Source of the DNA: Xanthomonas sp. CFBP 8443
GTDB taxonomy: Bacteria; Pseudomonadota; Gammaproteobacteria; Xanthomonadales; Xanthomonadaceae
Reading direction: 5' to 3'
DNA length: 64,000 bases
NCBI RefSeq assembly: GCF_025666195.1
Contig: NZ_CP102592.1
Coordinates: 1,922,001 to 1,986,000, forward strand
Each line of letters starts with the position of its first letter. The stretch's first letter is position 1. Below, piece after piece: positions 28,511-64,000 of the stretch. The position numbers and the translations under genes were made by a program. Under the pieces are notes generated by a model, which saw only the letters and a list, made by a program, of their open reading frames with translations, was not told the origin of the DNA and did not search any database.

Positions 28511-29224
28511 TCAGAGCTTCCCCTTCATCGACCGGTAGTCCCGCGGCGTCATCCCCACCGTGGCCTTGAACTGGCGCGCGAACGCGCTCTGGTCGGCGAA
28601 GCCGCAGGCCTGGCCGATGCTGGCGATGCTGTCCTCGCCGTGCAGCAGGCGCATCGCCGCTTCGATCCGCATCTTGGTCAGCAGTTGCTGCGGGGTCAGC
28701 TGGAACACGCGGCGGAAGTGCCGCTCCAGCTGCGCCACCGACAGTTCCGCCAGGTCGGCCAGGGTCTGCACGCGCAGGTTGTCGCCGTAGTGGATCTGCA
28801 TGTGCTCCATCGCGCGGCTGATGCGTTCGTAGGCGGAGTGGCGGCTGTCGGGCTGGCCCAGGTCGCGGGAGATGCCGACCACGCCGATCACCTCGTTGTG
28901 CTCGCACAGCGGGCGCTTGAAGGTCAGGCACCAGCCGGGGGTGCGGTTCGGGAACAGGTGCACTTCCAGCTGGTTCTCGATCATCTCCCCGCACAGCACG
29001 CGCCGGTCCTGCATCAGGTAGCTGCCGCCCAGCGGCAGCGGGAACACTTCCAGCGCCGATTTGCCGATCAGGTCGGTGCGGTATTTCTTGCCCAGGCGCC
29101 GCACCAGGGTCAGATTGACGTGGGTGTAGCGGCCGTCGCGGTCCTTGACGAAGAACACCACGTCCGGCAACGCATCGAACAGCGTCTGCATTTCCAGCGC
29201 CGAAATCATCGTCTCCATCTGCAT
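28511..29224 (-). CDS. PAS-domain AraC-family transcriptional regulator, probable regulator of hydroxyproline catabolism
   Basis: A 237-residue regulator: a PAS domain (about residues 8-122, ALPDVVFFVKDRDGRYTHVN) and a C-terminal AraC double helix-turn-helix domain (about 135-235, ELSVAQLERHFRRVFQLTP and ACGFADQSAFARQFKATVGMTPRDYR). It is divergent from the hydroxyproline epimerase gene across 167 bases, which suggests it controls that operon; a PAS rather than cupin sensor is less usual for AraC proteins. The ligand could be hydroxyproline or a catabolite. ATG at 29224 with a weak ribosome-binding site. Confidence 0.9.
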   Translation of the reverse strand: MQMETMISALEMQTLFDALPDVVFFVKDRDGRYTHVNLTLVRRLGKKYRTDLIGKSALEVFPLPLGGSYLMQDRRVLCGEMIENQLEVHLFPNRTPGWCLTFKRPLCEHNEVIGVVGISRDLGQPDSRHSAYERISRAMEHMQIHYGDNLRVQTLADLAELSVAQLERHFRRVFQLTPQQLLTKMRIEAAMRLLHGEDSIASIGQACGFADQSAFARQFKATVGMTPRDYRSMKGKL

Positions 29225-29253
29225 TCACCGGGCGGTTGTAGGCTGTTGCGACA

Positions 29254-29271
29254 GGTACGCCGCGGCGTACC
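29254..29271. promoter_or_regulatory. 18-bp perfect palindrome in the divergent regulator-operon gap
   Basis: GGTACGCCGCGGCGTACC is perfectly self-complementary and flanked by ACA...CTGT. It lies 30 bases upstream of the AraC-type gene and 120 bases upstream of the epimerase. TGTAGG occurs on both sides (about 29237 and 29274). It is a plausible operator. Confidence 0.55.
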
Positions 29272-29391
29272 CCTGTAGGTCGATCCTAGCCTATGTGGGG
29301 CGCCCCGGGCGATTGGGGTTGTGCGAACTTCCGCATTTATGACAGGCAAACGCTGCTAGCCCGCGGCAGCCCGGAATGTGAGCATGGGCCT

Positions 29392-30333
29392 ATGCATACA
29401 CTCGATGTGATCGACTCGCATACCGGCGGCGAACCGACCCGTGTCGTCGTCGCCGGCTTTCCCGACCTGGGCACCGGCCCGCTCGCGCAACGGCGCGATC
29501 TGTTCCGCGATCGTTTCGATCGCTGGCGCAGCGCCATCGCCTGCGAGCCGCGCGGCTCGGACACGATGGTCGGCGCGCTGCTGCTGCCGCCGATCGCCGC
29601 CGACGCCTGCGCCGCGGTGATCTTCTTCAACAACGTCGGTTACCTGGGCATGTGCGGCCACGGCACCATCGGCCTGGTGCGCACGCTGGCCGACATGGGC
29701 CGGCTGGCGCCGGGTACGCATCGCCTGGAGACGCCGGTGGGCACGGTCGGGGTGGAACTGCACGGCGACGGACGGGTGTCGGTGGACAACGTGGAGAGCT
29801 ACCGCCACGCCAGCGGCATCGAAGTGCAGGTGCCCGGCTACGGCCGCGTGCGCGGCGATGTGGCCTGGGGCGGCAACTGGTTCTTCATCACCGAACAGAC
29901 CCCGTGCGCGCTGGAACTGCGCAACCAGCGCGCGCTGACCGCCTACACCGAGGCGCTGCGGCTGGCGCTGGAGGCGGCCGGCATCCGCGGCGCCGACGAC
30001 GGCGAGATCGACCATATCGAGATCAACGGTCCGGCGCCGGACGCCAGCGCCGATGCGCGCAACTTCGTGCTGTGCCCGGGGCTGGCCTACGACCGCTCGC
30101 CGTGCGGCACCGGCACCAGCGCCAAGCTGGCGTGCCTGGCCGCCGACGGCAAGCTGGCCGCCGGCCAGGTGTGGCGCCAGCAGGGCATCCTCGGCAGCCT
30201 GTTCGAAGCCAGCTACGTGCCGGGCACCCGCGGCGTGCTGCCGCGGATCACCGGGCAGGCCCACCTCACCGCGCGCGCGCAGCTGCTGATCGATCCGCAG
30301 GATCCGTTCGCCTGGGGCATCGGCGCCGAATGA
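29392..30333 (+). CDS. 4-hydroxyproline 2-epimerase (proline racemase family)
   Basis: Converts trans-4-hydroxy-L-proline to cis-4-hydroxy-D-proline, the first step of bacterial hydroxyproline breakdown. The 313-residue length fits. Both catalytic cysteines are present: C88 in MCGHGTIG and C238 in [11 protein letters not shown], so it is an epimerase/racemase, not a Thr-type dehydratase. Also seen: [13 protein letters not shown]. Proline racemase activity cannot be excluded from sequence, but the downstream genes match the hydroxyproline route exactly. ATG at 29392 is preferred to an upstream in-frame ATG at 29293 because it gives the family N terminus [15 protein letters not shown]. The stop overlaps the next start (ATGA). 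Confidence 0.92.
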
Positions 30334-31430
30334 GCGGCTTCGACCTGATCGTCGTCGGCGCCGGCATCGTCGGCGCAGCCTGCGCCGATGCGGCCGCGGC
30401 CGCTGGCCTGCGGGTGGCGATCGTCGAGTCGGGCAGCATCGGCGGCGGCTCCACCGCCGCGGCGATGGGCCATCTGGTGGCGATGGACGATGACCCGGCG
30501 GAACTGGCGCTGTCGGCGTATTCGCTGCGCCTGTGGGAACAATTCGCGCAGCTGCCGGAGGCCGAGTACAGCCGCTGCGGCACGCTGTGGGTGGCGCGGC
30601 AGGCGCGCGAGCTGGAGGCGATCCCGGCCAAGATCCAGCGCCTGGCCGCCGCCGGCGTGCGCGCCGAGGCGATCGGCGCCGAGGCGCTGTACCAGTTGGA
30701 GCCGGCATTGGTGCCGGGCCTGGCCGGCGGCATGCGCGTGGCCGCCGAGGCGGTGGTGTATCCGCCGCGGATGGCGCGGCACCTGGTCGGCCGCGCGCTC
30801 GCCGCCGGTGCGCAGCTTTTCGCCGGGCGCCGCGCGCTGGCGCTGGCCGCCGACGGGCTGCGCCTGGACGACGGCAGCCGCCTGAGCGGGCCGGTGCTGG
30901 TCGCCACCGGCTGCGCGCTACCGGAGCTGCTGCCGGAACTGCCGATGCGGGCGCGCAAGGGCCAGTTGGTGATCACCGACCGCTATCCCGGCTTCGTCGG
31001 CCATCAGTTGCTGGAGCTGGGCTATGCCGACAGCGCGCACGGCAGCGACGGCAGCAGCGTGGCGTTCAACGTGCAGCCGCGGCCGACCGGACAGATCCTG
31101 ATCGGCTCCTCGCGCGAATTCGACGCCAGCGACCGCGGCGTGTCGATGCCGATGCTGCAGCGCATGCTCGAGCGCGCGTTCGCGTTCCTGCCCGGGCTGC
31201 GCCAGTTGCAGGCGATCCGGGTCTGGACCGGACTGCGTCCGGCCACGCCGGACGGCCGTCCGTACCTGGGCGCGGTGCCGCAGCGCAACGGCGTGTGGGT
31301 CGCCGCCGGCCACGAAGGCCTGGGCGTGACCACCGCGCTGGGCAGCGCACGGCTGCTGCTGGATCTGCTGCTGCAGCGACCTCCCGCACTGGACCCGGCG
31401 CCGTTCGCGCCGGCGCGGGCGCTGTCGTGA
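30330..31430 (+). CDS. FAD-dependent oxidoreductase, D-hydroxyproline dehydrogenase catalytic subunit
   Basis: A 366-residue DadA/GlcD-amine-oxidase-like flavoprotein with the N-terminal dinucleotide fold [20 protein letters not shown] and a C-terminal FAD motif ([32 protein letters not shown]). In the known pathway it oxidises cis-4-hydroxy-D-proline to 1-pyrroline-4-hydroxy-2-carboxylate, passing electrons to partner subunits. The next two genes encode a [2Fe-2S] subunit and a second flavoprotein, the same three-part make-up as the multi-subunit enzymes of pseudomonads. Starts within the stop of the previous gene (ATGA) and overlaps the next (GTGA). Confidence 0.88.
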
Positions 31431-31675
31431 GCGCGCCGATGCTGCGCCTGCAGGTCAACGGCCAGGCCCTGGAAGTGCTGGCCGGCAGCAGCGTGGCTGC
31501 GGCGGTGGCGCAGGTCGCGGTGCATTTCCGCCGCTCGCGCAGCGGCCAGCCGCGCGCGCCGCTGTGCGGCATGGGCGTGTGCAGCGAATGCCGGGTGCGC
31601 ATCGACGGCGTCGGCCAGTTGCGCGCCTGCATCACCCCGGCGCGCGACGGCATGCAGGTGTGGACCGATGGCTGA
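31427..31675 (+). CDS. [2Fe-2S] ferredoxin-like subunit of D-hydroxyproline dehydrogenase
   Basis: An 82-residue protein with a plant-type [2Fe-2S] pattern, CGMGVCSEC then a distant CIT (four Cys). It most likely carries electrons between the two flavoprotein subunits encoded on either side. The GTG at 31427 overlaps the previous stop (GTGA); an ATG at 31439, four codons later, is an alternative. It overlaps the following gene by 8 bases, which starts at 31668. Confidence 0.87.
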   Translation: MSAPMLRLQVNGQALEVLAGSSVAAAVAQVAVHFRRSRSGQPRAPLCGMGVCSECRVRIDGVGQLRACITPARDGMQVWTDG

Positions 31676-33008
31676 GCCGCGCGCGCTGCATTACGACGTG
31701 GTCGTGGCCGGCGCCGGTCCGGCCGGCCTGGCGGCGGCGTTGGCCGCGGCCGGGCACGGCCGGCGCGTGGCGCTGGTCGACCTGCAGGCGCGCGCCGGCG
31801 GCCAGATCTGGCGCCACGACGTCGCCCACGCGCCGCCGCGGCTGGCCGCGCGCGTGCTGGCGCAGCTGGCGGCGAGCAAGATCGAATTCCTGTCGCAGAC
31901 CCAGTTGCTGATGGCGCAGGACCGGCAACTGCTGGCCGATGGCCCGCAGGGCGCGCGCTGGATCGGCTACGACGCGCTGGTGCTGGCCACCGGTGCGCGC
32001 GAACTGCTGCTGCCGTTCCCGGGCTGGACCTTGCCCGGCGTCACCGGCGCCGGCGGCGCGCAGGCGCTGGCCAAGCAGGGCTGGCCGCTGGCCGGCAAGC
32101 GCGTGCTGGTCGCCGGCAGCGGTCCGCTGTTGCTGGCCAGCGCGGCGACGCTGCGCCGGCACGGCGCGCAGGTGTTGGGCATCGTCGAACAGGCGCCGCT
32201 GCGCGCGCTGGCCGGCTTCGCCGCGCAGTTGCCGTGGCGCTGGCCGGACAAGGCGCTGCAGGCGCTGGCGCTGCGCGCGCAACTGGCCGGCGTCGGCTAC
32301 CACAGCGGCAGCGTGGTGCTGGCCGCGCACGGCGAGGGCCAACTGCAGTCGGTGGAGATCGACGGCCCGCGCGGCCGCCGCCGCATCGACTGCGACCAGC
32401 TGGCGGTGGGCTACGGCCTGGTGCCGAACGTGGAGCTGGCGCAGCTGCTCGGCTGCCGCCTGGCGCACAGCGGCGCGCATCCGTGCGTGGCGGTGGACGC
32501 GCAACTGCGCACCAGCGTCGAGGGCGTGTACGCGGCCGGCGAAGCGCTGGGCATCGGCGGCCGCGACTGCGCGCGGGTCGAAGGCGCCATCGCCGGGCAC
32601 CTGGCGGCCGGGCAGGGCGCCGCCGCGCAGGCACTGCACCCGCAACGGCGGCGCGCGCGCGCGTTCGCCACCTTGCTGCAGCGCCACTTCGCGCTGGACC
32701 CGCGTATCCACGCGCTGGCCGCGCCGGACACGCTGGTGTGCCGCTGCGAGGACGTGCCGCTGTCGGCGCTGCGCGGCTACGACGATCTGCGCGACGCCAA
32801 GCTGGCCACGCGTTGCGGCATGGGCGCCTGCCAGGGCCGCATCTGCGGCAGCGCGCTGACCGAGCTGGGGCTGGCGCCGCGGCGCGACGATTTCTCCGAC
32901 GACGGCCGCCGGCCGCCGCTGTTCCCGGTGCGGCTGGCCGCGCTGGCCGATTGCCTGCCCAGCGCTTCCCCTCCCGACCACTCCTTCCCAACCCTCGACA
33001 AGGTGTAA
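31668..33008 (+). CDS. NAD(P)/FAD-type oxidoreductase with BFD-like [2Fe-2S] domain, D-hydroxyproline dehydrogenase subunit
   Basis: A 446-residue flavoprotein: dinucleotide folds VVVAGAGPAGLAAALAA (about 11-27) and KRVLVAGSGPLLLASAATL (about 144), a GVYAAGEALGIGG FAD motif, and a C-terminal BFD-like domain with VCRCEDV and TRCGMGACQGRICG (four Cys). The same architecture is found in octopine/nopaline and hydroxyproline dehydrogenase alpha subunits. It accepts electrons from the catalytic subunit. Overlaps the upstream [2Fe-2S] gene and is 4 bases from the next. Confidence 0.88.
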   Translation: MAEPRALHYDVVVAGAGPAGLAAALAAAGHGRRVALVDLQARAGGQIWRHDVAHAPPRLAARVLAQLAASKIEFLSQTQLLMAQDRQLLADGPQGARWIGYDALVLATGARELLLPFPGWTLPGVTGAGGAQALAKQGWPLAGKRVLVAGSGPLLLASAATLRRHGAQVLGIVEQAPLRALAGFAAQLPWRWPDKALQALALRAQLAGVGYHSGSVVLAAHGEGQLQSVEIDGPRGRRRIDCDQLAVGYGLVPNVELAQLLGCRLAHSGAHPCVAVDAQLRTSVEGVYAAGEALGIGGRDCARVEGAIAGHLAAGQGAAAQALHPQRRRARAFATLLQRHFALDPRIHALAAPDTLVCRCEDVPLSALRGYDDLRDAKLATRCGMGACQGRICGSALTELGLAPRRDDFSDDGRRPPLFPVRLAALADCLPSASPPDHSFPTLDKV

Positions 33009-33012
33009 TCCC

Positions 33013-33918
33013 ATGAGCAAGGCTTCCTTCTGGTACGGCGTGCTGCCGGCCATCACCACTCCGTTCAATGCCGACGGCAGCATCGACCACGCGTTCCTGG
33101 CCAAGCATGCGCAGGTCATGGTCGACGCCGGCTGCACCGCGATCGTGCCGCTGGGTTCGCTCGGCGAAGCGGCCACGCTCAGCTTCGACGACAAGGTCGC
33201 GGTCCTGAAGACCCTGGTGCAGGCGCTGGACGGCCGCATCCCGGTGGTGCCGGGCATCGCCGCGCTGTCCACCGACGAGGCCGTGCGCCTGGCGCAGGCC
33301 GCCAAGCAGGTCGGCTGCGGCGGGATCATGGTGCTGCCGCCGTACGTGTACTCCACCGACTGGCGCGAGATGGGCGCGCATGCGCGTGCGGTGATCGCCG
33401 CCACCGACCTGCCGGTGATCCTGTACAACAACCCGGTGGCCTACAAGACCGATTTCAGCCCGGCGCAGATCGCCGAGCTGGCCGCCGAATTCCCGAACCT
33501 GCAGGCGGTCAAGGAATCCTCCGGCGACGTGCGCCGCTTCGCCGCGCTGGGCGAGCTGCTCAACGACCGCCTGGTGCTGCTGGTGGGCATGGACGATGCG
33601 ATCGTCGAAGGCCTCAGCATGGGCGCCAAGGGCTGGATCGCCGGCCTGGTCAACGCGTATCCGAAGGAGTCGGTGAAGCTGTTCGAGCTGGCCCGCGACG
33701 GCGGCTATCCGGCGGCCAAGGCGCTGTACGACTGGTTCCTGCCGCTGCTGCGCCTGGACACCGTGCCCAAGTTCGTGCAGCTGATCAAGCTGGTGCAGGA
33801 GAAGGTCGGCCTGGGCAGCGAGCGCGTGCGCGCACCGCGCCTGGTCGTCGACGGCGCCGAGCGCGAAGCGGCGCTGAAGGTGATCGACCACGCCATCGCC
33901 ACCCACCCCGGGCTCTGA
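33013..33918 (+). CDS. 1-pyrroline-4-hydroxy-2-carboxylate deaminase (DHDPS family)
   Basis: A 301-residue Schiff-base lyase of the dihydrodipicolinate-synthase family that converts 1-pyrroline-4-hydroxy-2-carboxylate to 2-oxoglutarate semialdehyde and ammonia. The active-site Lys167 (AVKESSGDVRR) and Tyr138 (VILYNNPVAYKTD) are present, with the loop PLGSLGEAATLS. Sequence alone does not separate it from dihydrodipicolinate synthase; position between the hydroxyproline dehydrogenase subunits and the semialdehyde dehydrogenase does. AAGGTG precedes the start. Confidence 0.9.
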   Translation: MSKASFWYGVLPAITTPFNADGSIDHAFLAKHAQVMVDAGCTAIVPLGSLGEAATLSFDDKVAVLKTLVQALDGRIPVVPGIAALSTDEAVRLAQAAKQVGCGGIMVLPPYVYSTDWREMGAHARAVIAATDLPVILYNNPVAYKTDFSPAQIAELAAEFPNLQAVKESSGDVRRFAALGELLNDRLVLLVGMDDAIVEGLSMGAKGWIAGLVNAYPKESVKLFELARDGGYPAAKALYDWFLPLLRLDTVPKFVQLIKLVQEKVGLGSERVRAPRLVVDGAEREAALKVIDHAIATHPGL

Positions 33919-33919
33919 G

Positions 33920-35512
33920 ATGAGCATGCAGCCGCTGTTGCTCGCCGGCCACTGGCAGCCCTCGCTGGAACTGCGCGGCAGCTTCCGCGCCGAGGACCCG
34001 CGCGACGGGAACGCATTCGGCCCGGAGTTCCCGGTCAGCGGCGCCGCCGACCTGGAAGCGGCGCTGAGCGCGGCGGTGCTGGTCGCCGACGCGCTGGCCG
34101 CGGCGTCGCCCGAGCGCATCGCCGGCTTCCTCGACGCCTACGCCGCGGCGATCGAGGCCGACGTCGAGCAGTTGGTCGCGCTGGCGCATGCCGAGACCGG
34201 CCTGCCGGTCGAGCCGCGCCTGGCCAAGGTGGAACTGCCGCGCGCCAGCGGCCAGTTGCGCCAGGCCGCGCAGGCGGTGCGCAGCCATAGCTGGACGCAG
34301 CCGGTGATCGACACCGCGGCCGGGCTGCGCGCGCAGCTGGGGCCGCTGCACAAGCCGGTATTGGTGTTCGGCCCGAACAACTTCCCGTTCGCGTTCAATG
34401 CGGTGGCCGGCAGCGATTTCGCCTCGGCGATCGCCGCGCGCAATCCGGTCATCGCCAAGGCGCATCCCTCGCACCCGGCCACCAGCCAGCGCCTGGCGCA
34501 GCTCGCGCACCAGGCACTGCTGGACAACGGCCTGCCAGCCGCGGCGGTGCAGCTGCTGTACCACTTCGACAACGCGCTGGGCCTGGAACTGGCCGGCGAT
34601 CCGCGGCTGGGCGCGATCGGCTTCACCGGCAGCCGTGCCGGCGGGCTGGCGCTGAAGGCCGCGGCCGACCGCGCCGGCGTGCTGGCCTACGTCGAGCTGT
34701 CCAGCGTCAATCCGGTGTTCCTGCTGCCGGGCGTGCTGGCCGAGCGCGGCACGGCGCTGGCGCAGGAGTTCTTCTCCTCGTGCACGATGGGCAGCGGCCA
34801 GTTCTGCACCAATCCCGGCATCCTGGTGGTGCCCGAGGGCGAGGCCGGCGATGCGTTCGTCGCCGCAGCCGCGGCGCACTTCGCCGGCGCCGCGCCGAGC
34901 CTGCTGTTCTCGCGCGGCGTGCTCGAGCACCTGCAACGCGGCGTGGCCACGCTGCGCGACGCCGGTGCTGCGCTGCTGGCCGGCGGCGACGCGGCAGCGG
35001 CGCCGGGCTATCGGCATGCGCCGACCCTGCTGCAGGTCTCGGCGCAGGCCTTCCTGCAACAGCCCGAGGCGCTGCAGACCGAGGCGTTCGGCCCGGTCAG
35101 CCTGGTGGTGCGTGTCGCCGGCCTGGCGGAAATGACCGCACTGGCGCACAGCCTGGAGGGCAACCTCACCGGCACCGTGTACCGTGCCGCCGACGGCAGC
35201 GACGACGTGCTATTCGCCGCGGTGGCCGCGGCGTTGCGGCCGCGGGTGGGGCGCCTGATCTGCAACAAGATGCCGACCGGCGTGGCGGTCAGCGCGGCGA
35301 TGAACCACGGCGGGCCGTACCCGAGCACCGGCCATCCCGGCTTCACCGCGGTCGGCATGCCGGCCGCGATCCGCCGCTTCGCCGCGCTGCACAGCTACGA
35401 CGGCCTGCCCGATGCGCTGCTGCCGGCACTGCTGCGCGACCGCAATCCTGGCGGCGTGCAGCGGCTGATCGACGGCCAGTGGAGCGCTGCCGACGTGGGG
35501 CAGGCGACATGA
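33920..35512 (+). CDS. 2-oxoglutarate semialdehyde dehydrogenase (NADP+ type)
   Basis: A 530-residue aldehyde dehydrogenase, the last step from hydroxyproline to 2-oxoglutarate. Catalytic C296 (SGQFCTNPG) and E259 (VELSSVNPVFLLPG) are present along with PNNFPFAFNAVAG and FTGSRAGG. The length and SSCTMGSGQFCTNPG are typical of the ketoglutarate-semialdehyde/glucarate branch. Starts 1 base after the deaminase stop; its stop overlaps the next start (ATGA). Confidence 0.92.
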   Translation: MSMQPLLLAGHWQPSLELRGSFRAEDPRDGNAFGPEFPVSGAADLEAALSAAVLVADALAAASPERIAGFLDAYAAAIEADVEQLVALAHAETGLPVEPRLAKVELPRASGQLRQAAQAVRSHSWTQPVIDTAAGLRAQLGPLHKPVLVFGPNNFPFAFNAVAGSDFASAIAARNPVIAKAHPSHPATSQRLAQLAHQALLDNGLPAAAVQLLYHFDNALGLELAGDPRLGAIGFTGSRAGGLALKAAADRAGVLAYVELSSVNPVFLLPGVLAERGTALAQEFFSSCTMGSGQFCTNPGILVVPEGEAGDAFVAAAAAHFAGAAPSLLFSRGVLEHLQRGVATLRDAGAALLAGGDAAAAPGYRHAPTLLQVSAQAFLQQPEALQTEAFGPVSLVVRVAGLAEMTALAHSLEGNLTGTVYRAADGSDDVLFAAVAAALRPRVGRLICNKMPTGVAVSAAMNHGGPYPSTGHPGFTAVGMPAAIRRFAALHSYDGLPDALLPALLRDRNPGGVQRLIDGQWSAADVGQAT

Positions 35513-36714: not shown

Positions 36715-36793
36715 TGCGCGCGGCGGCCGCCAGCGCCTTGCGCCAATCGCGCGTGCCGCCGCCCGCGTTCCATCTGTTTGCCGGAGTCCGCCG

Positions 36794-40443: not shown

Positions 40444-40454
40444 GCATACCCAAA

Positions 40455-45488: not shown

Positions 45489-45797
45489 ATGAGTTCCATC
45501 GCCTCGGTGTCCTCGATCGCCCTGTCCGGCATGCGCGCCGCCGCGTCCGGGTTGCAGGCCCGTGCGCACAATGTGGCCAACGCCGCCACCGAGGGCTTCC
45601 AGCGCCAGGTGACGGTGAACCAGGAAGCGCCCGGCGGCGGCGTGACCAGCCAGGTGCAGGCGGTGGGCGGCGAGGGCAGCGACCTGGTCGACGACATGGT
45701 CGGCGGGCTGTCCGCGCGCAACGAATTCCAGGCCAACGCGCGAGTGCTGCGCGCGGCCGACGACACGGTCGGCAGCCTGCTGGACGTCCTGGCCTGA
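45489..45797 (+). CDS. Short flagellar basal-body rod-like protein
   Basis: A 102-residue protein made only of the two end modules of flagellar rod/hook proteins: an N-terminal helix (ALSGMRAAASGLQARAHNVANAATEGFQRQ) like FlgC/FlgG, and a C-terminal helix (NEFQANARVLRAADDTVGSLLDVLA). The central D1-type domain is absent, so it is shorter than FlgC (about 135). It stands alone, far from other flagellar genes, but behind a sigma-28-type promoter. The ribosome-binding site is weak and the leader is long. Function unknown; a structural accessory of the rod or hook is plausible. Confidence 0.75.
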   Translation: MSSIASVSSIALSGMRAAASGLQARAHNVANAATEGFQRQVTVNQEAPGGGVTSQVQAVGGEGSDLVDDMVGGLSARNEFQANARVLRAADDTVGSLLDVLA

Positions 45798-48706: not shown

Positions 48707-49037
48707 GTGGCGAAAAAGTCGGAAACGTCCCGAAACCTGTCGCGCAGTGCGATATTCCGCACATTTTCCCGATAAATACGACAAGACGGGGCCATCACCC
48801 TACGCGCACATTGTGGCCGTGCAGTGAAATCTCCGGGGGAGATTCCTGCACGAAGTAGCCGGACGCAACGCGTCGTCGTACGCGTCGCCGCGGGCGCGGC
48901 GGTGGGACCCTCCACCTGCCGTCGCGCCCGCGGACGTCCTTTCCGTACCCGCCACCGACCACTGGCGATGGGGACGGCCGCCCGGGGATGGGCGCCGACC
49001 TCGCCGATCGCCATGCCTCGCCGCCCAGGAGATTCCG
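48707..49037. other. 331-base region upstream of the first TonB receptor
   Basis: No gene supported. The first 80 bases are relatively AT-rich (48710-48790) and probably contain the promoter, but no consensus -35/-10 pair stands out. TGGCGAAAA at 48708 resembles TGGCGACGA at 60176 and the TGGCGACAA pair at 63485 and 63520, all just after the preceding stop. Confidence 0.4.
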
Positions 49038-56200: not shown

Positions 56201-57786
56201 GCCTGCGCCGCGCTGGGCTCGGCTGGACGTGGCTGTTGCTGGCCGCCGGTGTGGCGTCCGCCGCCGGCGCACAGGCGGCACCGGCGGACGCGCGCAGCGT
56301 GCACGCCGCCGGCAATCCGATCCTGGCCGACGGCCGCGACTATTCCGCAGATCCGGCGCCACTGGTCGCCGACGGCAAGCTCTACATCATCGCCGGCCGC
56401 GACGAGGCGCCGCCGGACGTCAACGACTTCGTGATGCGCCGCTGGCAGTTGCTGGCCACCGACGACGTCGGCAGCGGCCGCTGGACCCACTATCCGTCGC
56501 TGCTGCGCCCGGAGCAGGTATTCGCCTGGGCCGTGGCGGGCCGCGCCTACGCCGCGCAGATCGTGCAGGGGCCGGACCGGCGCTACTACCTGTACGCACC
56601 GGTCCACGAGAAGCATTCGCCCAACGCCGATCCGTTCGCGATCGGCGTGGCGGTCGCCGACAGCCCGCTGGGGCCGTGGCGCGACGCGCATCCGCAAGGA
56701 CCGATCCTGTCGCAGTCGCTGCCGGTCAGGAACACCATCCAGAACATCGACCCGACCGTGCTGGTCGACGACGACGGCCGCGTGTATCTGTACTGGGGCA
56801 CTTTCGGCAAACTGTTCGGCATCGAACTGGAACGCGACATGGTCACGCCCAAGGGCGAGGCGGTGGCGGTCACCACGCTGGACGGCTATTTCGAAGCGCC
56901 ATGGCTGTTCAAGCGCAACGGCACCTACTACCTGGCCTATGCCGGCAACCGCGCCGGGCCGGATTCGGAATGCACGCCGGCGCTCTACCACGCCTGCATC
57001 GCCTACGGCACGGCGCCGTCGCCGCTGGGGCCGTGGACCTACCGCGGGGTGATCCTGCCGCCGGTGTCCTCCACTACCTCGCATCCGGGCATCGTCGACT
57101 TCAAGGGCCAGTGGTATCTGGTCTACCACACCGCCGACGCCAAGGGCGGCGGCCACTTCCGGCGCAGCGTGGCGATCGACCGGCTGCAGTGGGACGACAC
57201 GCAGCGGCCGGCGCGGATCCGCCCGGTGCAGGCCACGCGCCGGGCGCAGCCGCCGCTGCCGCCGCAGCGCAATGTCGCCCGTTTCGCCCAGGCCAGCGCT
57301 TCCAACGGCCCGGACATCCCGCACCAGTACTGGATCGCCGCGCTCAACGACGGCGTGGTCAAGCGCAACCCGCTGCCGCCGCAGATGTGGGGCAGCTGGA
57401 GCGCGCACAATCCGCCGCAGCAGTGGATCCAGTACAGCTGGGCGCAGCCGGTGGCGCTGGAGCGCAGCCGCATCGTGTTCTGGGCCGACCACGCGCCCGG
57501 CGCGAACGAAGGCGTGGCGCCGCCGGCGCGCTGGCGCCTGGAATACCGCAAGGACGGACAGTGGCTGCCGTTGGCGCAGGCGGCGCACGCGCCGGTCGCC
57601 GACCGCGTGCAGACGCTGCGCTTCGCGCCGGTGACCACGCGCTGCGTGCGCGCGGTGTTCGATGCGTCCGGCGCCGACGGCCGCTACGCCGCCGTGGCGG
57701 TGCAGGAGTGGGAAATGTGGGCCACGCGTGCGCAGCGCCTGGCGCCGGCCGAGGCGGCGGCTGCGCAACAGTGCGACGATCGTTGA
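56197..57786 (+). CDS. GH43 family alpha-L-arabinofuranosidase-like enzyme
   Basis: A 529-residue secreted protein (signal peptide about 1-28). The five-bladed propeller of GH43 holds the expected acidic residues D52 (DYSADPAPLV), D185 (QNIDPTVLVDDDG) and E233 (YFEAPWLFKRNG). A C-terminal module (about 365-515; WGSWSAHNPPQQWIQYSW, FAPVTTRCVRAVFD) is homologous to one in the neighbouring 1443-residue protein. GH43 enzymes act mostly on arabinofuranosyl or xylosyl linkages. A relative encoded in Xanthomonas euvesicatoria is reported to act on the terminal alpha-arabinose of extensin glycans (from memory). Starts inside the previous stop (ATGA). Confidence 0.9.
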   Translation: MSLRRAGLGWTWLLLAAGVASAAGAQAAPADARSVHAAGNPILADGRDYSADPAPLVADGKLYIIAGRDEAPPDVNDFVMRRWQLLATDDVGSGRWTHYPSLLRPEQVFAWAVAGRAYAAQIVQGPDRRYYLYAPVHEKHSPNADPFAIGVAVADSPLGPWRDAHPQGPILSQSLPVRNTIQNIDPTVLVDDDGRVYLYWGTFGKLFGIELERDMVTPKGEAVAVTTLDGYFEAPWLFKRNGTYYLAYAGNRAGPDSECTPALYHACIAYGTAPSPLGPWTYRGVILPPVSSTTSHPGIVDFKGQWYLVYHTADAKGGGHFRRSVAIDRLQWDDTQRPARIRPVQATRRAQPPLPPQRNVARFAQASASNGPDIPHQYWIAALNDGVVKRNPLPPQMWGSWSAHNPPQQWIQYSWAQPVALERSRIVFWADHAPGANEGVAPPARWRLEYRKDGQWLPLAQAAHAPVADRVQTLRFAPVTTRCVRAVFDASGADGRYAAVAVQEWEMWATRAQRLAPAEAAAAQQCDDR

Positions 57787-57800
57787 AAAGGAGCGCGGCA

Positions 57801-60140
57801 ATGCAGAGGGATCGTGGTCATCGCATCGGGCGACAGGCGTGGCTGCTGGGCGCGCCGCCGCGTGCGGTGGCAGCGCTGCTGCTGGCACTCGCGCTGGCGC
57901 CGTGCGCGCTGGCGGCGCCGGGCGCGGACGACTACCAGCGTGCGCAGGCACTGAGTCGCCGCTACGAGGCGCTGGTCGATCGCGAACCGTCGCAACCGGT
58001 GTGGCTGGACGCCGGGCATTTCCTGTATCGGCGTTCGCTCGCGCGCGCCGGCGCCGCACCGGCGATCGAATACCGGCGCGCGGCCGTGGACAGCGGCAGC
58101 AACGAACTCGCCTTCGACCACGTGCGGCTGGCGGCGGCGCTGTCCGCAAGTGGCGGGCAGCCGGTCGATGCGACGGCGTTGCAGTTGTCCGAAGTAACGC
58201 TGAGCGAGCGCCAGTTGGACTTCGAGCGCGATCGCGTGCGCTGGCGCTGCGCCTTGCCGGACTACCGCTGCATGCGCAGCGACCTGGGCGCGCGAGAACC
58301 CGATTCCTACGACATGAGCATCCCGCTGAAGCAGGGCCCGGCGCATGCGCAGGCCTCGCCGGACGGCAAGTGGCGGGCCTGGGTCGAAGCCGGCAACGTG
58401 GTGGTCGCGGCGACGGCCGGCGGCGCGCCCTTTGCGCTCAGCCACGACGGCAGCGCGGCCGGGTACTACGCGGTGGACAGCTTCGCCTGGTCGCCGGACT
58501 CGACCCGGCTGGTCGCCTACCGGGTCACGCCGGCGCCGCCGCGCACGGTGTACTACATCGAGTCGGCGCCCTCCGACCAACTGCAGCCGAAGCTGCACCA
58601 GCAGGCCTACGCCAAGCCCGGCGATCCGCTGCCGGTGCTGCGGCCGGTGCTGTTCGACCTGGCCTCGCGCCGCGCGCAGGCGGTGCCGGCGACGCTGTTC
58701 CCGAATGCGTTCACCCTGGGCTGGCCGCAGTGGCGCCGCGACGGCAGCGGCTTCACCTTCGAGTACAACGAACGCGGCCATCAGCGCTACCGGGTCATCG
58801 AGGCGGACGGGCGCAGCGCGCAGGCGCGCACGCTGATCGAGGAAACCTCGCCGACCTTCATCGAATACAGCGCGCTCAGCGGCGACGGCGGCAAGTACTA
58901 CCGGCACGACTTCGCCGACGGCGCGCGCACCTTGTGGGCGTCCGAGCGCGACGGCTGGGAGCATCTGTACCTGTACGACACGCGCAGCGACGCCGCGCCG
59001 CGCCAGGTCACCCGCGGCGAGTGGGTGGTGCGCAAGGTCGATCGCGTCGACGAGGCGGCGCAGCAGGTGTACTTCACCGCCTCCGGCATGCTCCCGGGCG
59101 AGGACCCGTACTACCAGCACGCCTACCGCATCGGCCTGGACGGCCGCGGCCTGACCGCGCTGACCCCGGCGCCGGCCGATCACCAGGTGGTCTATTCGCC
59201 CGACGGGCGCTGGCTGCTCGACCTGTATTCGCGCGTGGATCTGGGGCCGGTGCTGGAACTGCGCCGCAGCGACGACGGCGCGCTGGTGCGGGAGGTCGAG
59301 CGCACCGACCTGTCGCGGCTGCTCGCCGCCGGCTGGGTGCCGCCGCTGCCGCTGCATGCGCCCGGCCGCGACGGCAAGACCGAGATCTGGGGCGTGATCC
59401 ATCGTCCGCAGGGGTTGGATCCGCAGCGCCGCTACCGCGTGGTCGAGAACATCTATGCCGGCCCGCACGGCGCGTTCGTGCCCAAGCGCTTCAGCGCACG
59501 CGTGCCGGCGCTGACCGCGCTCGGCTTCGCCGTGGCGCAGATCGACGGCATGGGCACCAACAACCGCTCGCGCGCGTTCCACGACGTGGCCTGGCGCAAC
59601 CTCAAGGACGCCGGTTTTCCCGATCGCATCGTCTGGCATCGCGCCGCCGCGGCGCAGTATCCGTGGTACGCGATCGAGCAGGGCGTGGGCATCTACGGCA
59701 CCTCCGCCGGCGGCCAGAGCGCGCTCGGCGCGTTGCTGTTCCATCCCGAGTTCTATGCCGCCGCGGTGGCCAATTCCGGCTGCCACGACAACCGCATGGA
59801 CAAGATCTGGTGGAACGAGCAGTGGATGGGCTGGCCGATCGGGCCGTGGTATTCGGCCTCGTCCAATGTGGACAACGCCTGGCGCCTGCAAGGGCATCTG
59901 CTGCTGGTGACCGGCGACATGGATCAGAACGTGGATCCGGCCAGCACCTTCCAGGTCGCCGATCGCCTGATCAAGGCCGGCAAGGATTTCGATCTGCTGG
60001 TGGTGCCGGGCGGCGACCACGGCGCCGGCGGCGCGTACGGCCAGCGCCGGCTGCTGGATTTCTTCGTGCGCTGGCTGCAGCAGGCGCCGACGCCGGACTG
60101 GAACCGCCAGGCGGCGGCGCCGACAGCGGTCGCGCACTGA
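57801..60140 (+). CDS. S9 family prolyl oligopeptidase/dipeptidyl-peptidase-IV-like protein (copy 2)
   Basis: A 779-residue secreted serine peptidase with signal peptide (about 1-40), beta-propeller and alpha/beta-hydrolase domain. Triad: S635 (GIYGTSAGGQ), D708 (GDMDQNVDP), H740 (PGGDHGAGG). It aligns with the copy at 42607 from end to end, for example HLYLYDTRSDAAPRQVTRGEW against [29 protein letters not shown] precedes ATG 57801, 14 bases after the GH43 gene. Within a glycan locus, a prolyl peptidase points to a glycoprotein substrate. Confidence 0.93.
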   Translation: MQRDRGHRIGRQAWLLGAPPRAVAALLLALALAPCALAAPGADDYQRAQALSRRYEALVDREPSQPVWLDAGHFLYRRSLARAGAAPAIEYRRAAVDSGSNELAFDHVRLAAALSASGGQPVDATALQLSEVTLSERQLDFERDRVRWRCALPDYRCMRSDLGAREPDSYDMSIPLKQGPAHAQASPDGKWRAWVEAGNVVVAATAGGAPFALSHDGSAAGYYAVDSFAWSPDSTRLVAYRVTPAPPRTVYYIESAPSDQLQPKLHQQAYAKPGDPLPVLRPVLFDLASRRAQAVPATLFPNAFTLGWPQWRRDGSGFTFEYNERGHQRYRVIEADGRSAQARTLIEETSPTFIEYSALSGDGGKYYRHDFADGARTLWASERDGWEHLYLYDTRSDAAPRQVTRGEWVVRKVDRVDEAAQQVYFTASGMLPGEDPYYQHAYRIGLDGRGLTALTPAPADHQVVYSPDGRWLLDLYSRVDLGPVLELRRSDDGALVREVERTDLSRLLAAGWVPPLPLHAPGRDGKTEIWGVIHRPQGLDPQRRYRVVENIYAGPHGAFVPKRFSARVPALTALGFAVAQIDGMGTNNRSRAFHDVAWRNLKDAGFPDRIVWHRAAAAQYPWYAIEQGVGIYGTSAGGQSALGALLFHPEFYAAAVANSGCHDNRMDKIWWNEQWMGWPIGPWYSASSNVDNAWRLQGHLLLVTGDMDQNVDPASTFQVADRLIKAGKDFDLLVVPGGDHGAGGAYGQRRLLDFFVRWLQQAPTPDWNRQAAAPTAVAH

Positions 60141-60428: not shown

Positions 60429-63400
60429 ATGCGCCAGGTTCGCTTGCCTTCCCTCCGTCCAGCTTCTTCCTGTCGCGATCGCCGCCGGCAAGGGCGCAGC
60501 CTGTTGTGCGGCGCGATCGCCATGGCCTTGCTGGTGGCGCTACCCGCCGCGGCGCAGGACGCTGCCAAGGCGCCCGATAAGGCAACCGCTGCCGCCGATG
60601 GCGGCGACACCGCCGCCGACGCCAAGACCCTGGACAGCGTGGTCGTCACCGGCTCGCGCATCCGCCGCAACGATGCGCTGGACGGCCCGACGCCGCTGAC
60701 CGTGATCGGCGCCGAGCAGATTCGCGCCGCCGGCTATACCGAGATCGCCGACGTGGTGAACCAGCTGCCGAGCCTGGCGCTGACCCAGACCAGCCAGACC
60801 GGCAACCTGGCCGGCAATCCCGGCATCAACGCGCTGGACCTGCGCGGCATGGGCACGCAACGCACGCTGGTGCTGGTCGACGGCCGCCGCCAGGTGCCGG
60901 CGATTCCCGGCACCTCGGCGGTGGACGTCAGCAACATCCCCTCCAGCCTGGTCGAGCGCGTGGAAGTCATCACCGGCGGCGCCTCGGCGCTGTACGGCGC
61001 CGACGCGGTCACCGGCGTGGCCAACTTCATCCTGAAGAAAGACTTCCAGGGCGTGGACGCCAGCGCCCGCTATGGCGCGTCCAGCCGCGGCGACATGCGC
61101 AGCACCAGCATCGACGCGCTGTTCGGCCGCAATTTCGCCGACAACCGCGGCAACGTCACCGTGTACGGTTTCTACGAACGCGAGCCCGATTCGGTGTCCG
61201 GCCAGGACCGGCCGTGGACCGCGATGGGCTATCCGATGTACACGCGCAACAACCGCAACCAGCGCTACTGGATCTCCGACAAAAACCGCAACATCAACAA
61301 CGCCGAGGATGCGCAGCTGATCCTGGGCGGGCGCCACTATGCGATGACCGCCGACGGGCGCCTGCGCGCGCCGGTGCTGGGACCGGGCGGCTACGTCAAC
61401 GCCGCACCGCTGAGCCTGGCCAATCCGGTCGACGCGCTGGGCAGCCTGCTCACCGACGGCGGCGAGTACGGCGGCCGCTACGACTCGTGGTACCTGTCGG
61501 TGCCGTCGGACCGCTTCTCCAGCCGCGCCACGTTCAATTTCGATTTCAGCGACAGCCTGCGCCTGTTCGCCAACGTCGGCTATTCGCAGAACAGTTCGCG
61601 CTCGGCCTGGCGCGCGCTGAGCGCGTTCGGCAGCGAGGCGGTGCCGGCCGACAGCCCGTTCATCACCGACGAGATGCGCGCGGCCAACGGCGGCACGATC
61701 ACCGACGGCGTGTACTTCGCGCGGCACTTCGACGACGAACTGGGGCAGGGCGGCAGCGAATACCGGCGCCGGCTGTTCCAGGGCGTGGTCGGGCTGGAGG
61801 GCGACTTCAGCCTGGGCGGGCGGGCGTGGAACTACGCGGCGTACTACTCCTACGGCCGCACCCGGCAGCGCAACCGCGACATCGACACGGTGGCCTACGA
61901 CCGCTACTACCTGGCGGTCGATTCCACCACCGCCGCCGACGGCAGCGCGATCTGCCGCAGTACGCTCGACGACCCGGGCAACGGCTGCGTGCCGTTGAAC
62001 CCGTTCAAGCGGCTGACCGCCGAGGAGATCGGCTACCTGCGCTACGACTCGGACTGGGCCACCACCACGATGACCCAGCAGGTGCTGTCGGCCTATGCCT
62101 CCGGCGGCATCTTCGACCTGCCCGGCGGCGAGGCGCAGATCGTGTTCGGCGGCGAGTACCGCAAGGAGCGCAACGACATCGGCGCGATCGCCCAGTACGA
62201 CCCGGCCAACCCGGCCTACGACGCCACCCTCGGCACCACCCAGCTGCCGTTGCGCGGGCAGTACGACGTCAAGGAGCTGTACAGCGAACTGCACCTGCCG
62301 CTGCTGGCCGGCAAGCCGTTCGCCGAGCGGCTGGGCGTGGACGCGGCGGTACGCGTGTCCGACTACAACACCGCCGGCCGCACCGTCACCAACAAGTTCG
62401 GCATCGACTGGTCGCCGATCCGCGACATCACCCTGCGCGGCACCTACGGCAAGGCGGTGCGCGCGCCCAACATCGGCGAGCTGTACACCGCCAGCAGCAT
62501 CGGCGGCATGTGGATCACCGACCCGTGCAACACCTACAACCTGCGCTATCGCACCGACCGCAGCCAGTACGCAGCGGCCAACTGCGCGCAGCTCAACCCG
62601 TCCGACAAGGACACCTACTGGCTGTACCGCGACATCATCACCAAGGGCAACCTGGACCTGGGCAACGAGACCGCCAAGACCCGCACCGTCGGCGTGGTGC
62701 TGCGGCCGCGCTTCCTGGAGGATTTCTCGCTGTCGGTGGACTACTACAACATCGATCTGCGCGGCGCGATCGATTCGTTCCCGGCGCAGACCATCATCAA
62801 CAAGTGCGTCGACGCGCCGACCCTGGACAACCAGTTCTGTTCGTTCGTCGGCCGCGACGCCGGCGGCAATCTGCTCGACGTGATCACGCAGAAGCTGAAC
62901 CTGTCGCGCTACCTGACCCGCGGCGTCGATTTCGCCGCGCAATACCGCTACGACCTGGCCGGACTCTGGGGCCAGAACGCCGGCGCGCTGTCGTTCGACC
63001 TCAACTACACGCGCCTGATCCGCCAGGACTACACCCTGGATCCGGACCAGCCGGAAGACGTCACCCGCTTCGCCGGCGTGTTCGGCTCGCCGCAGTGGAA
63101 GGGCGTGCTGCGCAGCACCTGGTCCAACCAGCATGCCGGCGCGACCTGGTCGCTGCGGCACATCGCCAAGATGCGCACCAGCACCCAGATCACCGACACC
63201 GACTACCAGAAGGTCTGGACCGGCAACGTGTTCTACAGCGACGTGTCCGGCTACTACCGGCTCAAGTCGGGGCTGGAACTGTTCGGCGGCATCACCAACG
63301 CATTCGACCGCGCGCCGCCGCGGGTGCCGGGCGCGGAGGCCGGTGGCGCCAATTTCGAACTCGGCTACCACGCCGGCGTGTACGACGTGATCGGGCGGAT

Positions 63401-63431
63401 GTACTACGGCGGGATCCGCCTGGCGCTGTGA
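60429..63431 (+). CDS. TonB-dependent outer-membrane receptor (copy 2)
   Basis: A 1000-residue receptor with signal peptide (about 1-43, ALPAAAQ), plug (LDSVVVTGSRIRRNDALDGPTPLTVIGAEQI, DLRGMGTQRTLVLVDGRRQVP, VEVITGGASALYGADAVTGVANFILKK) and a C-terminal barrel. It belongs to the same Xanthomonas/Caulobacter-type branch as copy 1 but is not a recent duplicate. The ATG at 60429 gives the signal peptide; an earlier in-frame ATG at 60159 adds 90 non-homologous residues. It directly precedes the GH127 gene. Confidence 0.93.
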   Translation: MRQVRLPSLRPASSCRDRRRQGRSLLCGAIAMALLVALPAAAQDAAKAPDKATAAADGGDTAADAKTLDSVVVTGSRIRRNDALDGPTPLTVIGAEQIRAAGYTEIADVVNQLPSLALTQTSQTGNLAGNPGINALDLRGMGTQRTLVLVDGRRQVPAIPGTSAVDVSNIPSSLVERVEVITGGASALYGADAVTGVANFILKKDFQGVDASARYGASSRGDMRSTSIDALFGRNFADNRGNVTVYGFYEREPDSVSGQDRPWTAMGYPMYTRNNRNQRYWISDKNRNINNAEDAQLILGGRHYAMTADGRLRAPVLGPGGYVNAAPLSLANPVDALGSLLTDGGEYGGRYDSWYLSVPSDRFSSRATFNFDFSDSLRLFANVGYSQNSSRSAWRALSAFGSEAVPADSPFITDEMRAANGGTITDGVYFARHFDDELGQGGSEYRRRLFQGVVGLEGDFSLGGRAWNYAAYYSYGRTRQRNRDIDTVAYDRYYLAVDSTTAADGSAICRSTLDDPGNGCVPLNPFKRLTAEEIGYLRYDSDWATTTMTQQVLSAYASGGIFDLPGGEAQIVFGGEYRKERNDIGAIAQYDPANPAYDATLGTTQLPLRGQYDVKELYSELHLPLLAGKPFAERLGVDAAVRVSDYNTAGRTVTNKFGIDWSPIRDITLRGTYGKAVRAPNIGELYTASSIGGMWITDPCNTYNLRYRTDRSQYAAANCAQLNPSDKDTYWLYRDIITKGNLDLGNETAKTRTVGVVLRPRFLEDFSLSVDYYNIDLRGAIDSFPAQTIINKCVDAPTLDNQFCSFVGRDAGGNLLDVITQKLNLSRYLTRGVDFAAQYRYDLAGLWGQNAGALSFDLNYTRLIRQDYTLDPDQPEDVTRFAGVFGSPQWKGVLRSTWSNQHAGATWSLRHIAKMRTSTQITDTDYQKVWTGNVFYSDVSGYYRLKSGLELFGGITNAFDRAPPRVPGAEAGGANFELGYHAGVYDVIGRMYYGGIRLAL

Positions 63432-63647
63432 CGACCGCCTGCCGCCCGCGCCATTCGGCACAAATCCGCATGTCTGCGCAGCCGTGGCGACAAGACGCGA
63501 TGACGTATCGATGACACAGTGGCGACAACCCGTCCTGTTGTGGCCGCGGCCGGGCCTGCCTGCCGCCGCCACGTGCAAAGGAGCAAGCGCTATGTATTGC
63601 CATGTTTTCTCGCCGCGTCCCGAGGCCGTCCAGCAGAGCGGTGCCCG

Positions 63648-64000
63648 ATGAGTCCGGGTTCGGGTCATGTCCATACGGCGCAGTGCGCGCACGCCGCCGC
63701 CGCCGATGCGGCGGCGCTGGATCCATCGCGCCGCCGCTTCCTGCAATGGAGCGCGCTGGCGATGGCCGCCGGGTTGCTGCGCTTCCCGCTGGATGCGGCC
63801 GCATCCAGCGCCGGGCGCGTGCAGGCGTTACCGCTGCAGCAGGTCACGCTCAAACCCTCGCTGTTCCTGGATTCGCTGCAGACCAATCGCCGCTACCTGA
63901 TGGAGCTCGAACCGGACCGGCTGCTGCACAATTTCCTGCAGTACGCGGGGCTGCCGCCGAAGGGTGCGGTCTACGGCGGCTGGGAAGGCGACACCATCGC
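63648..64000 (+). CDS. GH127 family glycosidase, probable beta-L-arabinofuranosidase (partial, N-terminal)
   Basis: Open from ATG 63648 to the window end (about 117 codons, no stop). A twin-arginine signal (SRRRFLQWSALAMAAG) comes first, then the family N terminus: VTLKPSLFLDSLQTNRRYLM, LEPDRLLHNFLQYAGLPPKG and YGGWEGD, which I recognise as GH127/DUF1680. The first GH127 enzyme, HypBA1 of Bifidobacterium longum, removes beta-L-arabinofuranose from hydroxyproline-linked arabino-oligosaccharides. The catalytic Cys/Glu region is beyond the window. Confidence 0.85.
   Translation, partial: MSPGSGHVHTAQCAHAAAADAAALDPSRRRFLQWSALAMAAGLLRFPLDAAASSAGRVQALPLQQVTLKPSLFLDSLQTNRRYLMELEPDRLLHNFLQYAGLPPKGAVYGGWEGDTI

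Follow-up and report, generated by a model that had tools for sequence, protein, structure and literature searches.

Bacterial catabolism of trans-4-hydroxyproline (Hyp) proceeds through an epimerase, a D-Hyp dehydrogenase, a deaminase and a 2-oxoglutarate semialdehyde dehydrogenase, and the CUT loci of Xanthomonas place TonB receptors near plant-glycan hydrolases. The closest described glycosidase system is that of X. euvesicatoria, in which XeHypAA (XCV2728), XeHypBA2 (XCV2729) and XeHypBA1 (XCV2724) strip Ara4-Hyp, with XeHypBA2 releasing beta-Ara2 from Ara3-Hyp (PMC6085000). Decay of genes of this kind in some Xanthomonas has been reported by Nakamura et al. The beta-arabinooligosaccharide cluster HypBA1/HypBA2/HypAA of Bifidobacterium longum (GH127, GH121 and GH43) likewise acts on Hyp-arabinosides; it uses the arabinose (PMC6085000) and has an ABC transporter for uptake (PMC7263609), and the passages available to us contain no peptide or Hyp catabolism. 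A GH127 enzyme of Latescibacteria has been proposed to act on extensin, again in passages with no Hyp catabolism (PMC4454575). In the available main text, the CUT-locus paper of Blanvillain 2007 (PMC1790865) makes no mention of arabinofuranosidase, peptidase or hydroxyproline, a paper dealing with epimerase gene neighbourhoods (PMC4113996) does not use the words "plant" or "glycoside", and PMC6085000 mentions no epimerase, receptor, TonB, galactosidase or catabolism. Among open-licence papers, we found none joining Hyp catabolism with GH121/GH127.

We analysed a 64,000-nucleotide stretch (the window) of the 5.24-Mb chromosome of Xanthomonas sp. CFBP 8443, in which genes of both kinds are neighbours (Table 1). 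The neighbourhood is probably a single nutrient-acquisition locus for arabinosylated, Hyp-rich plant glycoproteins of the extensin type. Its apparently new part is the physical linkage of a glycosidase half with a Hyp half, the GH121/GH43/GH127 trio being already known (PMC6085000). The original prediction had named that trio as an extensin gene set of X. euvesicatoria, and every part that it listed is in the sequence, with the correction that the GH127 gene merely begins in the window and extends past the edge to 66068.

Table 1. Features of the locus in window numbering; signal peptides were judged by eye and with simple patterns.
Feature	Position	Strand	Basis
PAS-AraC type regulator	28511..29224	-	Pfam HTH_18, PAS_4; divergent from Hyp operon
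4-hydroxyproline 2-epimerase (L-Hyp to D-Hyp)	29392..30333	+	NCBIfam NF010577, 458.4 bits (cut-off 442)
FAD-dependent D-Hyp oxidase/dehydrogenase subunit (DAO)	30330..31430	+	Pfam DAO 213.9 bits; role by context
2Fe-2S subunit of dehydrogenase	31439..31675	+	Pfam Fer2_4; role by context
Pyridine nucleotide-disulphide oxidoreductase subunit of dehydrogenase	31668..33008	+	Pfam Pyr_redox_2; role by context
DHDPS-family enzyme, likely pyrroline-4-hydroxy-2-carboxylate deaminase	33013..33918	+	Pfam DHDPS; role by operon context
Aldehyde dehydrogenase, likely 2-oxoglutarate semialdehyde dehydrogenase	33920..35512	+	Pfam Aldedh; role by operon context
M24 X-Pro-type peptidase	35509..36714	+	Pfam Peptidase_M24 201 bits
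DUF885 protein 1, putative peptidase, lipobox-like N-terminus	36794..38623	+	Pfam DUF885 577 bits; lipobox pattern
DUF885 protein 2, signal-like N-terminus	38620..40443	+	Pfam DUF885 527 bits
Amino-acid permease	40901..42472	+	Pfam AA_permease_2 157 bits
S9 dipeptidyl-peptidase-IV-type peptidase	42631..44940	+	Pfam DPPIV_N + Peptidase_S9; top PDB 2ecf dipeptidyl peptidase IV
GHx789, six-hairpin glycosidase-like, Tat-type signal, 789 aa	46337..48706	+	Predicted structure, fold match
TonB-dependent receptor 1	49149..51872	+	Pfam
GH121 beta-L-arabinobiosidase (predicted) with F5/8 type C and Big_4 domains	51926..56200	+	6m5a HypBA2 match, Pfam
GH43 arabinofuranosidase, HypAA type by context	56197..57786	+	Pfam GH43 PF04616 117.9 bits
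Second S9 prolyl-type peptidase, signal-like N-terminus	57801..60140	+	Pfam Peptidase_S9 + DPPIV_N
TonB-dependent receptor 2	60522..63431	+	Pfam
GH127 beta-L-arabinofuranosidase, Tat-type signal, 5' part	63648..64000	+	Pfam GH127 PF07944 423 bits; start ~63648 read by eye
GH27 alpha-galactosidase, just beyond window	66125-67711	+	Pfam Melibiase_2 246 bits
TonB receptor 3, beyond window edge	68387-71230	+	BLAST likeness and reading only
Ldh_2-family dehydrogenase, beyond window edge	71642-72619	-	

The Hyp operon of the window comprises seven genes, the last of which encodes the M24 peptidase and overlaps the aldehyde dehydrogenase gene by 4 bases; the DAO gene shares 4 bases with the end of the epimerase gene. 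The top PDB match of the epimerase is 4juu from X. campestris (555 bits), and residues C88 and C238, which we take to be the catalytic Cys pair, are both invariant. No NCBIfam model scored above its cut-off for the DHDPS-family protein, any of the three dehydrogenase subunits or the aldehyde dehydrogenase, and their Pfam classes and order fit the pathway. The operon would lead from trans-4-hydroxyproline to 2-oxoglutarate: all the expected enzyme classes are present in order, the epimerase exceeds the NF010577 cut-off, and the putative roles of the downstream enzymes are assigned by Pfam class and context. Known Hyp operons have the same enzyme classes in one operon, whereas that of the window adds the overlapping M24 gene, whose product has no export signal discernible by eye at its N-terminus, and adjoins a glycosidase/TonB-receptor locus. 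The PAS-AraC regulator, which likely regulates the adjoining operon, also heads the Hyp operon in the loci of five other genomes (G061, G145, G120, G130 and G074). Further downstream, the first DUF885 protein has PDB relatives 3o0y and 3iuk.

In the GH127 protein, residues E333, C335, C402 and C403 are invariant among 8 sequences and presumably form the zinc site. The GH121 protein, 1424 residues long from the start chosen here (the original prediction had a glycosidase-like protein of 1443 residues), matches HypBA2 (6m5a) over residues 28-843 with an E value of 7.6e-219, a stretch that spans the HypBA2 catalytic domain, and is predicted from this likeness to be a beta-L-arabinobiosidase. Its gene overlaps the GH43 gene by 4 bases, just as xehypBA2 and xehypAA overlap in X. 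euvesicatoria (PMC6085000), where the GH127, GH121 and GH43 set is also accompanied by an adjacent prolyl oligopeptidase gene. The nearest PDB sequences of the GH43 protein are xylosidase/arabinofuranosidases; because its gene overlaps that of GH121, we infer a specificity for the alpha-1,3 linkage of Ara4-Hyp. (The gene order in X. axonopodis, seen in L107 and L108, would fit the XCV numbering.) Just beyond the window, the putative GH27 alpha-galactosidase would suit the alpha-galactose that extensin serine bears (PMC5371791).

The gene that best marks the locus was absent from the parts list of the original prediction. It encodes GHx789, a 789-residue protein with no match in Pfam, NCBIfam or PDB sequences; of 8000 scored candidates, 1581 are its relatives. 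Several GH families have a six-hairpin (alpha/alpha)6 architecture, and an AlphaFold model of GHx789 (pLDDT 88.6, pTM 0.90) shows this fold, an (alpha/alpha)6 barrel with a beta-sandwich domain, although there is no sequence-level match and identity is only about 10%, with many families tied and no individual GH family standing out. Assignment of GHx789 to GH127 or GH121 was rejected (hhalign probabilities of 6% and 1%, respectively, and no Pfam match). Acidic residues and two cysteines are invariant in an alignment of 44 sequences. The most likely target of GHx789 is a further part of the Hyp-glycan that GH43, GH121 and GH127 would strip.

The original prediction had staked itself on the two halves occurring together, and they do. 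Samples of 151, 398, 299 and 150 genomes were searched. Within the genus, GHx789 and the 4-Hyp epimerase are linked in 20 of 20 genomes, with a gap of 13.4-17.4 kb; in the order, GHx789 is borne by 8 of 151 genomes, the epimerase lies 9.6-19.0 kb away in all 8, and the five bearers outside the genus all have the whole Hyp operon at the locus. Of the 20 order genomes that have a full-length epimerase match of at least 56% identity, 12 have the epimerase without GHx789, so that it can serve free Hyp. By a coordinate fit, which covered 32 of 50 loci and is ambiguous for several that lie at contig ends, the distance between GHx789 and the epimerase is below 35 kb in 29 of the 32; direct overlap of the GHx789 locus with the Hyp region was checked for L009 and L028. 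(Note that the samples overlap, in that G061 is L021, G120 is L036, G130 is L044, G074 is L063, G145 is L071 and G890 is L060, and that the linkage counts are not independent, as the members of each group are mostly relatives of one another.)

Linkage of the halves extends, in rearranged form, to more distant bacteria. A family from a different class of the same phylum (that of G505) has GHx789 in 4 of 299 genomes, and all four have the epimerase, DHDPS, permease, M24, GH127 and TonB receptor genes within 25 kb, in differing orders. Three alphaproteobacterial loci (L046, L061 and L062) contain rearranged epimerase, DHDPS and GH127 genes, their epimerases being 36-39% identical to that of the window. 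All five epimerases tested from these loci and from G505 and G770 belong to subfamily NF010578 (496-553 bits, cut-off 376), and because the other-class epimerases thus fall in a different NCBIfam subfamily, the sequences suggest that the halves were assembled repeatedly. In one family of Acidobacteria, GHx789 occurs in 9 of 150 genomes, five of which have the epimerase on the same contig within 22 kb; in G1001, the S9, GHx789, full Hyp operon, GH127 and GH43 genes lie within 23 kb. The epimerase is present in 8 of the 9 bearers versus 41 of the 141 other genomes (Fisher p 5.7e-4, the genomes not being independent). Six acidobacterial loci were checked for Hyp genes, which lie on another contig in L050, L054, L055, L056 and L066; L050, L055, L056 and L066 do not overlap the Hyp region of their genome and were counted as unlinked. 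In L060 (G890) the two stretches do not touch, yet both are on contig C5. GHx789 and the Hyp genes also appear unlinked in L047, GHx789 is present with no epimerase match in G927, L053 and L075, and the epimerase matches of G373 and L059 reach only 38% and 34%, that of G373 being on another contig. GH121, too, is missing from many relatives: a match was found in 25 of 71 related loci (a count limited by locus ends), and G167 has the gene only in pieces.

The two halves are associated more closely than chance would allow. A single inherited arrangement in Xanthomonas, where the S9 and GHx789 genes of the window are about 1.4 kb apart, would look the same if two independent loci were neighbours merely by descent and had no functional tie; however, the arrangements differ in the other classes and in Acidobacteria, and the other classes have a different epimerase subfamily, so that we regard this explanation as scarcely credible. 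We would go further, tentatively and at slightly worse than even chances, in proposing a recurrent glycoprotein utilisation locus with the protein backbone as its main nutrient, put together separately in Xanthomonadales, Alphaproteobacteria and Acidobacteriota with GHx789 at its core. GHx789 would then be the founder of a new GH family for Hyp-linked glycans and might, like GH127, have a Cys-dependent active site.

No L-arabinose isomerase was found in any of the 20 genus genomes (a control search was positive in 5 of 14 genomes), and X. euvesicatoria is reported to be unable to use L-arabinose (PMC6085000). Both observations argue against the idea that the glycosidases serve to gain arabinose, with the glycan as the main meal, as in Bifidobacterium, and the Hyp operon salvaging a by-product. 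The GH43/GH121/GH127 set of B. longum does supply arabinose as food (PMC6085000), and TonB receptors are located among the glycosidase genes, but the Hyp operon, M24 and DUF885 genes are kept beside GHx789 in G145, G120, G130 and G074 with neither GH121 nor GH43 in the 39 kb read, and we consider a sugar-driven locus quite improbable. Peptide and Hyp, rather than arabinose, would be the main gain.

The natural substrate might instead be another protein with arabinosylated Hyp, such as arabinogalactan proteins, solanaceous lectins, algal wall proteins or secreted glycopeptide hormones. GHx789 loci do occur in soil Acidobacteria, and 30 of 71 related loci encode a GH35/DUF5597 protein that would suit beta-galactosides. 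Nevertheless, XeHypBA2 and XeHypAA are reported to be specific for Ara3-Hyp and Ara4-Hyp, respectively (PMC6085000), Hyp-Araf4 is reported to be exclusive to extensins (PMC5371791), and GH27 fits Ser-alpha-Gal, which makes a substrate other than extensin rather unlikely.

For an extensin-type substrate, exported GH43 would remove the alpha-1,3 arabinose, GH121 would take off beta-1,2 arabinobiose and GH127 the last arabinose on Hyp, while GH27 would remove alpha-galactose from serine and GHx789 its part of the Hyp-glycan. The S9 and DUF885 peptidases could then cut the bared peptide, with TonB receptors importing sugars or glycopeptides and the permease importing dipeptides or amino acids; a cytosolic M24 enzyme would release Hyp, and the Hyp operon would convert it to 2-oxoglutarate. 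(Gene content, families and conserved linkage are observed; localization, step order, transport cargo and the GHx789 reaction we infer.) The co-occurrence of the halves, together with the match to a trio that strips Ara4-Hyp (PMC6085000), largely supports the prediction of a gene set for stripping arabinose, cutting the peptide and burning Hyp, and the complete-system reading leans also on GH27 and GHx789, neither of which had been named. Such a locus would link deglycosylation, proteolysis and catabolism of the amino acid that marks plant wall proteins, and would differ from bacterial glycan loci as usually read, namely as sugar-eating. It offers an answer to the question raised in PMC6085000 of why a non-user of L-arabinose retains three arabinose-releasing enzymes, gives the conserved, uncharacterised GHx789 family a specific substrate hypothesis, and suggests a way in which the carbon and nitrogen of extensin may be recycled by bacteria of soil and plants.

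Removal of wall glycoproteins could also disarm plant defence, in which case virulence would come first and nutrition second. We think this very unlikely. The X. euvesicatoria operon is HrpX-induced, yet the triple deletion strain stayed pathogenic (PMC6085000); 9 of the 71 related loci (25 with a GH121 match) have a PIP-box-like site ahead of GH121, but none was found before this gene in the window, L006, L007, L008, L012, L038 or L058, and soil Acidobacteria and Sphingomonas are among the relatives. We rejected HrpX control for the strain studied here: the window has a single PIP-like site (48710-48734, minus strand), no more than expected by chance (mean 1.2). A PIP-like match before GHx789 in L014 was set aside, as were matches near the permease starts of several loci; these lie between 112 bases inside and 173 bases upstream of the predicted start, apparently in a conserved coding stretch.

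The contig is one piece of 5,238,480 bases, of which the window makes up bases 1922001-1986000, and gene calls and domain scans confirmed the gene list of the original prediction. At 29392-36714 lie seven genes that overlap or almost touch (gaps of -4, 8, -8, 4, 1 and -4), specifying, in order, a 4-hydroxyproline epimerase, an FAD oxidase, a 2Fe-2S protein, a Pyr_redox_2 protein, a DHDPS-family protein, an aldehyde dehydrogenase and an M24 peptidase; a divergent PAS-AraC regulator gene stands at the head of this hydroxyproline (Hyp) operon. Downstream of the M24 gene are genes for two DUF885 proteins, a permease and a DPP-IV-type S9 peptidase, the last of which is separated by 1.4 kb from the gene for GHx789 (a 789-residue protein with a predicted six-hairpin glycosidase-like fold, used here as a locus marker). 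There follow TonB receptor 1, GH121, an overlapping GH43, a second S9 peptidase, TonB receptor 2 and GH127 and, past the window edge, GH27, TonB receptor 3 and an Ldh_2-family dehydrogenase. The window comes from a Xanthomonas: among the 71 loci bearing GHx789 relatives (L numbers; G numbers denote genomes), those nearest to its GHx789 are in X. bonasiae FX4 (95% identity) and Xanthomonas sp. AmX2 (92%).

Additional features in and around GHx789 loci
Feature	Location	Strand	Basis
102-residue ORF between the halves	window 45489-45797		
Ldh_2-family dehydrogenase, near cluster	window coordinates 71642-72619 (past edge) = L004:8642-9619	-	Pfam
Ldh_2-family dehydrogenase (Asticcacaulis), near cluster	L062:12187-13227		Pfam
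RHS-repeat protein, 1736 residues	window coordinates 73117-78327 (past edge) = L004:10117-15327		Pfam RHS_repeat, 69.6 bits
GH35/DUF5597 protein	L015:5531-7171; L046:18212-19720; G505 (L081:4237-5838)		Pfam
PIP-box-like site before GH121	L016, L018, L028, L029, L033, L034, L037, L057, L064		

The proposal that the Hyp and peptidase genes form one neighbourhood with the glycosidase and TonB receptor genes held up. In the genus, epimerase and GHx789 occurred together in 20/20 genomes, 13.4-17.4 kb apart, and GH121 was matched in all 20 (as fragments only in G167 and broken near its N-terminus in G151, which fits the decay that has been reported for these genes in certain Xanthomonas). In the order, 8 of 151 genomes carried full-length GHx789, two weak partial matches of <100 residues having been dropped, and in 8/8 the epimerase was on the same contig, at gaps of 9.6-19.0 kb; none of the 151 had GHx789 without an epimerase. 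Epimerase matches were found in 56/151 genomes (Fisher p 2.6e-4 for the association using all 56, a guide only because the genomes are related). Twenty of these were full-length at >=56% identity, and 12 of the 20 lacked GHx789; thus, the epimerase often occurs alone.

The linkage extends beyond the order. In a family of another class of the same phylum, GHx789 was present in 4/299 genomes, all four with epimerase, DHDPS, permease, M24, GH127 and TonB receptor within 25 kb and three with DUF885, in differing gene orders. Three loci of Alphaproteobacteria, L046 (Stakelama), L061 (Sphingomonas) and L062 (Asticcacaulis), also have epimerase, DHDPS and GH127 near GHx789, with M24 in two and permease-like matches in two. 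The epimerases of these loci are 36-39% identical to that of the window, with both Cys kept. Because they, like those of G505 and G770, fall in another NCBIfam family (NF010578, 496-553 bits; cut-off 376), the same function was recruited via a different subfamily. This favours functional selection over shared descent.

Within one Acidobacteria family, 9/150 genomes carried GHx789 and 49/150 the epimerase, with both in 8 of the 9. Five of these had the two on a shared contig within 22 kb (gaps of 2.8, 7.4, 12.7, 19.5 and 21.2 kb) and three had the epimerase on other contigs; the epimerase search of the ninth bearer, G927, gave no match. A 23-kb stretch of G1001 holds S9, GHx789, a complete Hyp operon, GH127 and GH43. 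Across 51 GHx789-bearing genomes (those of 50 of the 71 loci, plus G373), 49 had an epimerase match, those of G373 and L059 being only 38% and 34% identical; the genomes of L053 and L075 had none. In L047 the two genes seem unlinked. In the Bryobacterales loci L066 and L073, GHx789 adjoins M24 and S9 peptidase genes, with GH127-type matches (several in L066); no Hyp gene was detected in either locus.

The 1424-residue GH121 protein has a match in HypBA2 of B. longum (6m5a, E 7.6e-219). The X. euvesicatoria counterparts have been shown to act serially on Ara4-Hyp, in the order GH43, GH121, GH127 (PMC6085000). Repeats of extensin bear one to five Hyp-linked arabinoses and a serine-linked alpha-galactose, and Hyp-Araf4 is described as unique to extensins (PMC5371791). 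Since extensin serine bears alpha-galactose, GH27 supplies the enzyme class for the remaining sugar, and we infer that this alpha-galactosidase is paired with it. GHx789 also has a GH27 relative as a neighbour in L040, in L044 (a locus of genome G130) and in G1021; in G1032 one lies ~16 kb off.

L-arabinose isomerase (PF02610) was found in 0/20 genomes of the genus, with the control search positive in 5/14 known genomes. X. euvesicatoria is reported to be unable to use L-arabinose, and the authors of that report ask why it keeps these arabinose-releasing enzymes (PMC6085000). The overlap of M24 with the Hyp operon, the presence of four other peptidase-like genes (S9 and DUF885, two of each) and the conserved epimerase linkage suggest that the released sugar may be an obstacle to remove and the peptide, with its Hyp, the gain.

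PIP-box-like sites, counted without a shuffle control, precede GH121 in 9/71 loci (25 with a GH121 match), consistent with reported HrpX control. Upstream of GH121 in the window and in its six closest-clade loci, no such site was detected. Control by virulence regulation seems to have been added later to a nutritional locus.

Each half of the locus is already known; in the open-access literature searched, we found no report joining Hyp catabolism with the GH121/GH127 half. In X. axonopodis DSM 3585, one contig carries GH127, TonB receptor, S9, GH43, GH121, TonB receptor and GHx789 and, beyond it, S9, permease, DUF885, M24 and Hyp genes. Given this order, the same arrangement would be expected in X. 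euvesicatoria around XCV2724-XCV2729.

Some Ldh_2-family members reduce pyrroline-2-carboxylate, an activity that would suit proline or 3-Hyp salvage; an NCBIfam search of the dehydrogenase gave nothing over cut-off. A GH35/DUF5597 protein of ~500-550 residues stands alongside GHx789 in many relatives (matches in 30/71 loci), and the gap before GHx789 in the window is too small for its gene. The 102-residue ORF, without a Pfam match, resembles by eye a flagellar rod-protein (FlgC-type) fragment, and several Xanthomonas loci have a relative of it at the corresponding position. The RHS-repeat protein is positioned after the cluster, and its C-terminal third appears repetitive by eye.
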